The translations under genes and the position numbers were made by a program. From Bacteroides fragilis (GTDB lineage Bacteria; Bacteroidota; Bacteroidia; Bacteroidales; DTGW01), in the NCBI GenBank assembly GCA_945889005.1, contig CAMDBI010000005.1, positions 1-64,000 of the forward strand: a stretch of 64,000 bases of DNA. Reading direction: 5' to 3'. A model generated the notes under the pieces. That model was not told the DNA's origin and searched no databases. It saw only the letters and a list, made by a program, of their open reading frames with translations. Shown piece by piece: positions 11,464 through 19,899 of the stretch (the stretch's first letter is position 1; each line of letters starts with the position of its first letter).

Positions 11464-12855
11464 CTATTGTTCGGAATCGATTAAAGCCATAATTCGTTCA
11501 ATCTGTTTCTGCTTATTTACTTCTCGCAATCCACGTGCTGTTTTAGTAAAATATTGGTGCCCCGATATAAATTTTATTTGAAGTTTGTTCCAATCGTTTA
11601 GCGTTCCTATTTTGTTTATTTCTTTAAGCTCCCTATAAAGTGTATTCGAAACAGGTATAAAATCGGTGCGTCCAAGATAATCGAGGTCAGCATCGCAGAT
11701 TATTTCTTCCAAAAGATTTTTGGGTTTGGGGGGCAATTTGGTAGCTATTATTATTTCGCAAATTCGGTCAATCTGGCTTTTCGAATATTTGTATTTTGGC
11801 AACATCGCCCGCACCATTTCAGTTCCATGATATTCATGATTGTCGTATGCTTTTACATGACCCACATCGTGAAACAAAGCCGCTGTTTTGAGTAAAAGTA
11901 TTTCTTCGTCGGTACATCCTTCGCCCCAGCCAATAAGCTCTACCTCTGTTACTACATCTACTGTATGTTTAACATTGTGGTAATAAAGATAGGGTGGGAG
12001 TTCTTTTTCAAGTTTGTCGAGTATCATTTCTTGAATGTCGGTAAATTGAATGGATCCAAAGCGTGTGAAAAACAAATCGTTTACTTCGCGTCCATTTCCG
12101 TCGATCGACAACTCGGGGATCAAACCTTTAACCGAATAAAGATCAATATCGCCTTTGTATTTTATAGGCATTTTACCATAATGATCGCACTCAAAAAACT
12201 CTTTAACAAGTTCATAAGTATTGGCAGAGATCAATATTTTGCCTATTTCTCCCGACGATTCTATTCGAGTTACAATATTTACAGTGTCGCCTTTCAAATC
12301 GTACGATATTTTTTTTGTCCCCGAAACAGTTGCATTAACTGGACCGGTATGTATACCAAGTTTAATATCCCATATCTTGCCATTTTCTTGTTTATATTGG
12401 CAATCGTCTACGGCTCTCTGCATTTCGATTGCTGCCAACACTACATCTATAGGGTTTGTAATATTCTTGATGGGAATTCCTCCAGCTACCATGAGCGAGT
12501 CTCCAATGGTTTTTATACGAACAATATCATATTTCTCAATAATGCTATTAAGTTGAAACAAAAGAGAGTCTAGCATATCCATTAAATGCTTCGATTCTGA
12601 ATTGTCGGTAATTTTCGAAAATCCATGAATATAGCCAAATAGTATGGTTACCATATTGAATCGTAGACTGGGAGTATTGTCCGATTCTTTTTTAAGGAAT
12701 AATGATTGATCTTTTAGCTCTTCGAAACTTAAACGAAATGCATCATTCTCTTCTGTAAGTTCGTTGACACGTATTTTTAATGCTTCGTTTTGTTCCCGTA
12801 GCAGATTGTTTTCCTTTATTAATCGATATATTCTTTTTACAAACTCGTTTTGCAT
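11464..12855 (-). CDS. Coiled coil - class III nucleotide cyclase-like - HD phosphohydrolase fusion
   Basis: A 463-residue protein. Residues 1-55 form a charged coiled coil. Residues about 66-245 are a class III cyclase homology domain. The adenine-specifying pair Lys115 (IKTIGD) and Asp186 (YDLKGD) is present, as are the transition-state residues Asn193 and Arg198 and the second metal Asp119. The first metal Asp of the canonical FADI motif is replaced: the sequence reads FGYI with Tyr75. Residues about 275-440 are an HD domain with the His-Asp pair at 329-330 (ALFHDVGH), His343 and Asp388/390. The protein may make, break or only sense a nucleotide; the substitution argues against normal two-metal cyclase chemistry. 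There is no membrane segment. Confidence 0.82.
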   Translation of the reverse strand: MQNEFVKRIYRLIKENNLLREQNEALKIRVNELTEENDAFRLSFEELKDQSLFLKKESDNTPSLRFNMVTILFGYIHGFSKITDNSESKHLMDMLDSLLFQLNSIIEKYDIVRIKTIGDSLMVAGGIPIKNITNPIDVVLAAIEMQRAVDDCQYKQENGKIWDIKLGIHTGPVNATVSGTKKISYDLKGDTVNIVTRIESSGEIGKILISANTYELVKEFFECDHYGKMPIKYKGDIDLYSVKGLIPELSIDGNGREVNDLFFTRFGSIQFTDIQEMILDKLEKELPPYLYYHNVKHTVDVVTEVELIGWGEGCTDEEILLLKTAALFHDVGHVKAYDNHEYHGTEMVRAMLPKYKYSKSQIDRICEIIIATKLPPKPKNLLEEIICDADLDYLGRTDFIPVSNTLYRELKEINKIGTLNDWNKLQIKFISGHQYFTKTARGLREVNKQKQIERIMALIDSEQ

Positions 12856-17928: not shown

Positions 17929-18267
17929 ATGGAATTCAAGATTGAAAAACAGGACAATTACACATTAATCAGGGTTTTAGAAGAAAAACTCGATACTCAT
18001 ATTGCTCCGTCGTTAAAATCGGAACTGGTTTTAATTTCTGGAAATGGAGAGAAAAATATAATTCTCGATTTAAGCAATTGTCGTTATTGCGATTCTTCAG
18101 GACTAAGTGCTATTCTTGTGGCCAATCGACTTTGTAAAAATGCAGGTGGTAAATTTTACCTTACTGGATTAAACGAAGCAGTTGAACGACTTATTGTTAT
18201 ATCGCATCTTGATACGGTTCTCAACATAGTTGAAACAATTAACGAAGCGATCGAGAACATTAAATAG
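17929..18267 (+). CDS. STAS-domain anti-sigma-factor-antagonist-like protein
   Basis: A 112-residue single STAS domain, similar to SpoIIAA/RsbV. The phosphorylation-site region reads CRYCDSSGLSAILVANR near residues 47-63, with the Asp-Ser-Ser-Gly pattern intact. Such proteins switch partner kinases by Ser phosphorylation. No anti-sigma kinase or sigma gene is adjacent; a second STAS gene lies on the other side of RNase Z, on the opposite strand. It sits 44 bases after rpsA and 18 before rnz, probably in one transcript. Confidence 0.9.
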   Translation: MEFKIEKQDNYTLIRVLEEKLDTHIAPSLKSELVLISGNGEKNIILDLSNCRYCDSSGLSAILVANRLCKNAGGKFYLTGLNEAVERLIVISHLDTVLNIVETINEAIENIK

Positions 18268-18284: not shown

Positions 18285-19199
18285 ATGTCTTTTTATGTAA
18301 CTATTTTAGGGAGTAGTTCAGCTATTCCTTCATATAAAAGAAACTTAGCCGCTCATCTGGTCAATCACGATGAGCGGCTTTTTTTAATTGATTGTGGCGA
18401 AGGTACTCAAATGCAATTGTTGCGTTATAACCTGAAATTCCATCGAATCAATCATATTTTTATTTCGCATCTTCATGGCGATCATGTATTTGGCTTGTTT
18501 GGCTTGTTGGCAACCTTGTCGATGGCTAATAGAAAAAGCCCACTAAATATTTATTCACATTATTCACTCGAAGAAATTGTTCAAACTCATCTTAAACTTT
18601 TCAACTACGAACTTACATTTCCTCTTATTTTTCATAAGATCAATCACAAAGATTCACAAATTTTATATGACGATAAAAAACTTGAGGTACATACAATTCC
18701 TCTTAAACATAGAATACCTTGTGTAGGGTTTTTATTTAAGGAAAAGCAGAAACTTTTAACAATCAATAAAGAATTAATATCTGTTTTTGATATTCCTGTA
18801 AAAGAAATATTTAATATCAAATCGGGAAGCGACTTTGTGACAAAAGAAGGGCGCGTAATACCTAATAATGTATTAACCCAAAAGAGTGCCCCCCCAAAAT
18901 CTTATGCTTATTGCACAGATACATTGATCCAAGAAAAAAATGTAGATTTAATAAAAGATGTAGATTTGCTTTATCACGAAGCTACCTTTCTAGAGCGAGA
19001 TGCAAAACTTGCCAAAAATACGTATCACTCTACAGCCCATCAAGCAGCAGCACTTGCTCAAAAAGCAAATGCCCAAAAATTAGTTATTGGGCATTTTTCT
19101 AATCGCTATAATAACGATTATGATTTCTTAGTAGAAGCCAAATCTGTTTTTGAAAATACTATTTTAGCCGAAGACGGTGCTACTATAGAAATTTCTTAA
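18285..19199 (+). CDS. rnz: Ribonuclease Z
   Basis: A 304-residue metallo-beta-lactamase-fold endonuclease that matures tRNA 3' ends. The zinc motif SHLHGDH is at residues 61-67 (His62, His64, Asp66, His67). Further metal ligands appear in the YCTDT segment near 206-210 and the late GHFSNRY motif. The N-terminal LGSSSAIPSYKRN and DCGEGTQMQLLR are also typical. Length matches the 305-residue short form. Its last bases overlap the convergent STAS gene by four. Confidence 0.95.
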   Translation: MSFYVTILGSSSAIPSYKRNLAAHLVNHDERLFLIDCGEGTQMQLLRYNLKFHRINHIFISHLHGDHVFGLFGLLATLSMANRKSPLNIYSHYSLEEIVQTHLKLFNYELTFPLIFHKINHKDSQILYDDKKLEVHTIPLKHRIPCVGFLFKEKQKLLTINKELISVFDIPVKEIFNIKSGSDFVTKEGRVIPNNVLTQKSAPPKSYAYCTDTLIQEKNVDLIKDVDLLYHEATFLERDAKLAKNTYHSTAHQAAALAQKANAQKLVIGHFSNRYNNDYDFLVEAKSVFENTILAEDGATIEIS

Positions 19200-19543
19200 A
19201 CGTTGAAACTTTTTACCGAATCTTGTACTGAACCATATATTTCAAAAACATTGTGTAATTGAAGCAATTTAAATAATTCCATTACCTCTGTTGCCACATT
19301 GCATATCTTAAATGCTCCATAATTGTTGTTTGCTACTTTCATTACAGAAAGAAACACTCCAAACCCCGAACTATCAATAAACTGAATTCCTTCAAGATTA
19401 ATAATTAATTTTGTGTTAGGTTTGTTAAATAAACTTTTCAATTCTTCTTTAACGGGTTCCGAAACAAGTGCATTTAGCCTGCTAATATCGTTAAATGTGG
19501 CTACTACAACATTGTTAATTACCTCGGTTTTAATCATTGCCAT
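19196..19543 (-). CDS. STAS-domain protein, second copy
   Basis: A 115-residue STAS domain with the motif IQFIDSSGFGVFLSV near residues 53-67, so the phosphorylatable Ser is kept. It differs from the plus-strand copy in most positions and is not a recent duplicate. It follows the HPt gene by two bases, which suggests that phosphotransfer and partner switching belong to one signalling unit. It converges with rnz and overlaps it by four bases. Confidence 0.88.
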   Translation of the reverse strand: MAMIKTEVINNVVVATFNDISRLNALVSEPVKEELKSLFNKPNTKLIINLEGIQFIDSSGFGVFLSVMKVANNNYGAFKICNVATEVMELFKLLQLHNVFEIYGSVQDSVKSFNV

Positions 19544-19545
19544 AT

Positions 19546-19899
19546 TTACTGGTTTTTTTGTTGATCTATAATATAGTTATGCAATTCCTCAATTGCTTCT
19601 GTGCATTCTATCATAAAACGTGCAACAATGGATGGATACATCTCTTTTTTTTCTCCATGACCCGCATTAATCTCTAATTCCTTTAGAGCTGCAGCCAAAT
19701 CGGTCATACCCATTATTGCTACAGACGATTTTGCTTTATGTGCTATTCTGCCTAAATTCTCCCAATTTTGAGATTCAAGTGCCATTTGCATATCGTCCGA
19801 AATTTCTCCAATTTGCTCTGTAAATATGTCTATCATTTCGGCTATCAATGTGTTATTGTCGCCAGACATATTCTTTAAATACGCCAAATCTGTTCTCAT
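19546..19899 (-). CDS. HPt histidine phosphotransfer protein
   Basis: A 117-residue four-helix HPt domain. The phosphorylatable His54 lies in LGRIAHKAKSSVAIMG near residues 49-64, the classical HPt helix. It would relay phosphate between response-regulator receiver domains of a phosphorelay. No histidine kinase or receiver is encoded nearby. It is the first gene of a two-gene unit with the STAS protein. The start ATG lies just downstream of a long AT-rich divergent intergenic region. Confidence 0.88.
   Translation of the reverse strand: MRTDLAYLKNMSGDNNTLIAEMIDIFTEQIGEISDDMQMALESQNWENLGRIAHKAKSSVAIMGMTDLAAALKELEINAGHGEKKEMYPSIVARFMIECTEAIEELHNYIIDQQKNQ

Follow-up and report, generated by a model that had tools for sequence, protein, structure and literature searches.

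A degenerate class III cyclase fused to a conserved HD domain in Bacteroidales: a candidate cyclic-nucleotide phosphodiesterase with a putative pseudo-cyclase regulator

Among the described systems, one of the closest functional parallels to the protein studied here is CAPE (COMBINED AC with PDE), known from streptophytes including liverworts, which also combines in one chain a class III cyclase and an HD-fold cyclic nucleotide phosphodiesterase carrying a conserved His pair (PMC5159850, PMC8115329). According to the original description, both activities are measured for CAPE, the liverwort enzyme mutated at a metal-binding aspartate (D1340A) is devoid of cyclase activity, and the mutation of either H199 or H203 of the conserved pair abolishes the phosphodiesterase activity (PMC5159850). 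CAPE differs from our protein by its reversed domain order, the activity of both domains, its full-size, true class I phosphodiesterase and its eukaryotic origin, and the accessible sections of the two publications report no reciprocal decay (PMC5159850, PMC8115329). A bacterial fusion of a class III cyclase and an HD domain is described nowhere in the literature searched, the partial coverage of which makes this a weak negative. Another parallel is offered by those GGDEF-EAL proteins whose GGDEF domain is degenerate: they unite a c-di-GMP synthase and a c-di-GMP hydrolase in one chain, the synthase being degenerate and the hydrolase intact. Our protein would follow the same pattern, but the domains and the messenger are unrelated and the allostery of our protein is putative.

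This protein is encoded by a single open reading frame in the window, i.e. the whole stretch of 64,000 nucleotides that was analysed, and the features discussed below are located as follows.

11464..12855, minus strand: whole gene (single ORF), 463 aa, coiled coil, pseudo-cyclase and HD hydrolase, member of the "short" family
12706..12852, minus strand: long N-terminal helix or coiled coil, residues 2-50, from the AlphaFold2 secondary structure and weak coiled-coil family matches
12127..12663, minus strand: residues 65-243, class III nucleotidyl cyclase domain that is presumed to be catalytically dead (PF00211, 8.5e-36; CyaB 3r5g, Z 24.3)
12631..12633, minus strand: Tyr75 codon (TAT), where the alignment of 96 fused proteins places the first metal-binding Asp
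12499..12501, minus strand: Asp119, second metal-binding Asp, kept in 57/58 proteins of the short family and 34/34 of the long one
11479..12063, minus strand: residues 265-459, HD domain that is presumed to be an active phosphodiesterase (PF01966; model pLDDT 84; structural matches)
11965..11979, minus strand: H293-x3-H297 of the YHNxxH motif (both His in 58/58 short proteins; partial PDEase_I match)
11866..11871, minus strand: H329-D330, the HD pair (58/58 short proteins)
11686..11688, minus strand: Asp390 within DADLDYLGR, the presumed last metal ligand (58/58 short proteins; another residue in 14/34 long proteins)
11569..11580, minus strand: Q426-I-K-F429, with purine-clamp-like spacing (Q 58/58, F 57/58 short proteins; putative clamp equivalent by its spacing only)

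The original prediction of a coiled coil, a class III cyclase-like domain and an HD domain in one chain is confirmed by Pfam and by AlphaFold2. Pfam places Guanylate_cyc (PF00211) at residues 65-243 with an E-value of 8.5e-36 and 123.7 bits, against a cut-off of 21.9, HD (PF01966) at residues 296-390 with an E-value of 6.7e-9, above its cut-off, and a PDEase_I match at residues 292-333 that stays below threshold (18.0 bits against 24.8) and covers the first 46 positions only. The model of the 463-residue protein (mean pLDDT 80.6) comprises a long helix at residues 2-50, a cyclase fold spanning roughly residues 62-245 and, from residue 260 on, a helical HD part. The cyclase part resembles cyclases of known structure, the highest Z being 24.3 (Pseudomonas aeruginosa CyaB, 3r5g). 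By its PF00211 score and its fold, the domain belongs to the class III nucleotidyl cyclase family; it shares with adenylate cyclases such as CyaB the fold and the substrate-binding residues, but it lacks the first metal-binding Asp and has Lys188 in place of Trp, as in its whole family.

The genes flanking the cyclase-HD gene in the list of open reading frames encode a Tex-like S1 protein, a short lipoprotein-like product and a DegP-like protease. The tex gene lies 51 bp downstream. Across the loci searched, often with only about 1.5 kb of flank, this adjacency is restricted to the genome of the window itself; a conserved operon was therefore rejected and the neighbourhood says little. A Pycsar anti-phage cyclase was also rejected, the match to PycC being at the superfamily level (3.2e-10) and no effector gene being seen among these neighbours. 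Elsewhere in the window, two genes that by sequence are STAS-like anti-sigma antagonists and one Hpt-like phosphotransfer gene form a cluster (17929-18267, 19196-19543 and 19546-19899).

The fusion, initially regarded as unusual, recurs throughout the Bacteroidales in addition to having a known eukaryotic parallel in CAPE. The search gave 23 loci from named genomes and some match in 93 of 149 related genomes, and the alignment contains 96 distinct fused cyclase-HD proteins. Two families account for all but four of them: a short, soluble one of about 465 residues, to which the window protein belongs (58 members), with Lys188 throughout instead of the usual Trp after the base-binding Asp, and a long one, often of about 1220 residues, with Trp188 (34 members). 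The long paralogue in the window's genome is made of propeller repeats and Y_Y_Y followed by the cyclase and HD domains, and is 43% identical to the window protein across these two domains. Its HD domain is partly eroded, with D390 replaced by Ile and F429 by Leu, while H297, H329 and D330 are kept. At L010 and L016, and likewise on contig 11 of G115, a few kilobases separate the short gene from the long one.

Other arrangements and variants were also noticed. At L104 (G033), two ORFs make up the short protein, one of 301 residues for the pseudo-cyclase and one of 257 residues for the HD part; they are in different frames and abut at the junction, which may be a frameshift or a real split. At L096:1067-4945 (G016), the long cyclase ORF stops and the HD ORF resumes in frame three bases on, as if a single stop codon interrupted the fusion. 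A small Trp188-type clade of 581-633 residues (L061, L065, L073 and L075) has Asn at the first metal site and an intact HD domain, and by its residues the same cyclase loss has arisen in the Trp188-type family too. In addition, genes that by sequence are universal-stress-protein-like adjoin the long cyclase gene in the window's genome (L054:246-1085) and, in several other genomes, stand-alone HD genes belonging to this family (L105, L107, L108, L109, L111 and L113).

At the first metal site, the segment F73-G74-Y75-I76 occupies the F-x-D-I position of class III cyclases in the alignment, as read from the single sequence (FADI to FGYI). K115, D119, D186 and N193 are all found where they had been placed, and the arginine initially given as Arg198 is R197. 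The alignment discloses near Tyr75 no other acidic residue that could supply the metal ligand. A sequencing error was rejected because the sister sequences also lack Asp75: within the same family, the three closest relatives carry Asn in this column, and Tyr recurs in a separate clade. Among the 58 short orthologues, position 75 is D in 26, N in 16, E in 7, Y in 5, S in 2 and H in 2, and in a tree of the fused proteins built with the catalytic columns left out it changes at least 16 times, compared with 14 changes for the cyclase residue set and 3 for the HD set. Tyr is only one of the replacements N, E, Y, S and H, and the signal is therefore the recurrent loss of Asp rather than the gain of Tyr to which the original prediction had drawn attention. 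A Tyr75 subgroup does exist, formed by the clade of L005, L006, L009 and L033, but the tree separates the window lineage from it, and a conserved-Tyr subgroup including the window protein was rejected. With Tyr75 in place of the first metal-binding Asp and its other residues present, the window protein does not qualify, as judged from its residues, as a competent class III adenylate cyclase; many short orthologues, which have Asp75 and all the other residues, may still be active cyclases. Another, separate group of degenerate class III cyclases is formed by cyclase-like proteins of about 408 residues at L134 (G092) and L138 (G135), in which metal 1 is N, metal 2 is G and another residue stands for the final Arg.

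The two families decay in opposite directions. In the short family, H293, H297, H329, D330 and D390 of the HD domain are each present in 58/58 proteins and Asp75 in 26/58; the long family has K115 and D119 in 34/34 proteins and Asp75 in 30/34, and HD residues are lost in 14. When the 96 fused proteins are sorted by state, both sites are intact in 37, the cyclase is lost in 44, the HD domain in 15 and both in none (Fisher 3.6e-5, uncorrected for relatedness). The HD losses correspond to three changes on the tree, with one clade of 13, and the co-occurrence statistics are therefore not independent. The same crossing is seen in the mean identities, which are 0.59 for the cyclase and 0.76 for the HD domain in the short proteins, and 0.79 and 0.37, respectively, in the long ones; it holds in 78/78 genome pairs drawn from the 13 genomes (or contigs) that have both families and an eroded long HD domain. 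Between the window's genome and G001, a genome of its own family, the values are 0.61 and 0.82 for the short protein and 0.86 and 0.49 for the long one. This suggests that the short and long genes come from a duplicated bifunctional enzyme that divided its jobs.

The cyclase complement of the genomes was also considered. The window's genome, which is 99.4% complete, encodes exactly two PF00211 proteins, namely the window protein and its long paralogue, together with five Crp-type cNMP-binding domains. A further cyclase with the full residue set is present in 31/31 genomes that have a cyclase-lost fusion, and where a genome encodes one PF00211 protein only, as four do (G035, G072, G084 and G088), both sites are always kept. 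The corresponding test of cyclase loss against a backup cyclase (31, 18, 0 and 4 genomes) gives about 0.025 one-sided, a weak value with relatedness not removed.

On this basis we propose that the window protein is a cyclic-nucleotide phosphodiesterase, most likely acting on cAMP and endowed with a regulatory pseudo-cyclase, a proposal that, taken as a whole, has in our estimation an even chance of being correct.

The HD part is a member of the HD superfamily of phosphohydrolases, with H297, H329-D330 and D390 in 58/58 short proteins, the PF01966 match and a structural match to 2pq7 (Z 17.1 over 167 residues for the model of pLDDT 84). The A-D motif designates D390 as the probable last metal ligand, the alternative D388 being kept even in eroded copies. 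In the structure searches, which were also run with Foldseek, the same model aligns with YpgQ (Z 16.3, 177 residues) and with PDE10A (Z 16.3, rmsd 3.1, 195/201 residues), and the predicted fold fits bacterial HD hydrolases and class I phosphodiesterases (PDE10A, PDE5, PDE4, PDE9) equally well; in the model it is a class I catalytic fold, tied with that of the bacterial enzymes. YpgQ, YedJ and 2pq7 are the top sequence and structure matches, but they lack the YHN start of the motif, having HDIxHT or HDxxH instead, and the solved chains are stand-alone. The window domain shares with the class I phosphodiesterases elements that we take to be common to both, YHNxxH, HDxxH, ADL and QxxF, but it is about 100 residues shorter. 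The class I signature is HDxxHx[AG]xxN, and the window sequence HDVGHVKAYDN lacks its [AG] and N positions; by this signature and by the PDEase_I cut-off, which no protein exceeds in 296 genomes of the phylum, the sequence does not class it as a class I phosphodiesterase. In the sequence-profile comparison, bacterial HD hydrolases likewise come nearer (2pq7 5.7e-8, YedJ, YpgQ), the best class I phosphodiesterase reaching 0.01 and matching in the first motif only, and cAMP therefore stays a candidate substrate.

The best placed of the other readings, which we consider unlikely but worthy of serious attention, starts from these same facts: the HD hydrolase would be intact, but its substrate would not be a 3',5'-cyclic nucleotide; it could be a nucleoside triphosphate, such as has been proposed for the YpgQ-type hydrolases, and the cyclase part would be a nucleotide sensor for the HD domain. 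The best sequence matches, the equal fit of YpgQ and related structures and the departure from the class I signature all favour it. Against it, the phosphodiesterases cover more of the HD model (195 residues versus 167-177), the YHNxxH motif points to cyclic nucleotides, and so does the fusion or direct adjacency to a class III cyclase in many lineages; indeed, at L096, L105, L108 and L111 a class III cyclase gene is directly followed downstream by a stand-alone gene of the same HD family. Furthermore, Q426 and F429 are both present in 21/21 long proteins with an intact HD domain, and 14/14 eroded ones lack F429, the Phe being kept or lost along with the metal ligands. In their spacing they presumably match the Gln and Phe that form the purine clamp in phosphodiesterases, of which they would be the equivalents. 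The literature describes the glutamine as invariant and the clamp as hydrophobic, with residue numbers for the Giardia enzyme that do not give the QxxF spacing (PMC5617230).

A slightly less credible reading, also unlikely, holds that the cyclase domain is a dead scaffold, free of catalysis and of nucleotide binding, that only dimerises the HD domain. It would account for the replacement of K115 in 13/58 short proteins, for the frequent Glu at D186 and for the faster evolution of the cyclase part relative to the HD part in most short proteins. A pure scaffold is not expected, however, to conserve the rest of the site as is observed in the 32 short proteins devoid of Asp75, where D119 is kept in 32/32, N193 in 31/32, R197 in 32/32, K188 in 32/32 and K115 in 24/32. 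Synonymous sites are saturated for almost all pairs, including the Tyr75 pair L005/L009, and dN alone was therefore compared; in this pair the cyclase is the more conserved part, with a dN of 0.032 against 0.089 for the HD domain. Because D119, N193 and R197 are kept and amino-acid change is low at saturated synonymous sites, the pseudo-cyclase is probably a maintained, nucleotide-binding domain, which argues against plain decay. The idea that a non-catalytic cyclase part binds a nucleotide and controls the HD domain is thus partly supported, in that it fits the comparative data.

A heterodimer is improbable. Here the short protein would be a C2-like half, providing K115, D186, N193 and R197, and the long paralogue would provide both metal Asp residues of one joint cyclase site; this agrees with the coexistence of short and long proteins in one genome and with the loss mainly of a metal Asp that is also absent from the aligned mammalian C2 sequences. 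Yet the second metal Asp, absent from C2, is kept in 57/58 short proteins, the K115 that a C2-like half needs is missing from the 13 proteins mentioned above, the long paralogue has a complete residue set and needs no partner, and several short proteins devoid of Asp75 occur in genomes that have no long fused paralogue. Finally, a tolerated Tyr75, which would leave a working adenylate cyclase in a bifunctional fusion, as the presence of every other catalytic residue and of Asp75 in 26/58 short proteins might suggest, is very improbable in view of the essential metal-site Asp of CAPE (D1340A) and of the lack of a neighbouring acid able to substitute.

In the model that we prefer, a cyclic-nucleotide phosphodiesterase with a regulatory pseudo-cyclase, the cyclase dimer would hold a nucleotide, probably ATP, through D119, K115, D186, N193 and R197. 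The window protein would be unable to cyclise this nucleotide because the first metal-binding Asp is gone, and the occupancy of the site would be relayed from the pseudo-cyclase to the intact HD domain, which would hydrolyse cAMP. The cAMP would be made by the membrane-anchored sensor paralogue, comprising a periplasmic propeller, Y_Y_Y, a transmembrane helix, an intact cyclase and an eroded HD domain, and the pair would have arisen from a bifunctional cyclase-phosphodiesterase ancestor by duplication followed by reciprocal decay. A bolder extension, which we hold only tentatively and consider doubtful, is that the two reciprocally decayed copies constitute a cAMP switch in Bacteroidales: the pseudo-cyclase would gate hydrolysis by sensing ATP or another nucleotide, and the membrane pseudo-phosphodiesterase would gate synthesis by sensing cAMP. 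If this is true, each protein would have kept the former active site of the other enzyme as a regulatory pocket.

The turnover of cAMP in the Bacteroidales is poorly known, and a 2005 census of four sequenced Bacteroidetes reported no adenylate cyclases (PMC1183210). The interesting part of the present finding is the reciprocal decay, since the crossed decay of the paralogues is a natural experiment that places the HD domain in the pathway of the cyclase. The prediction that follows is a cAMP phosphodiesterase of a compact and so far uncharacterised type, together with a pseudo-cyclase that would act as its regulator.
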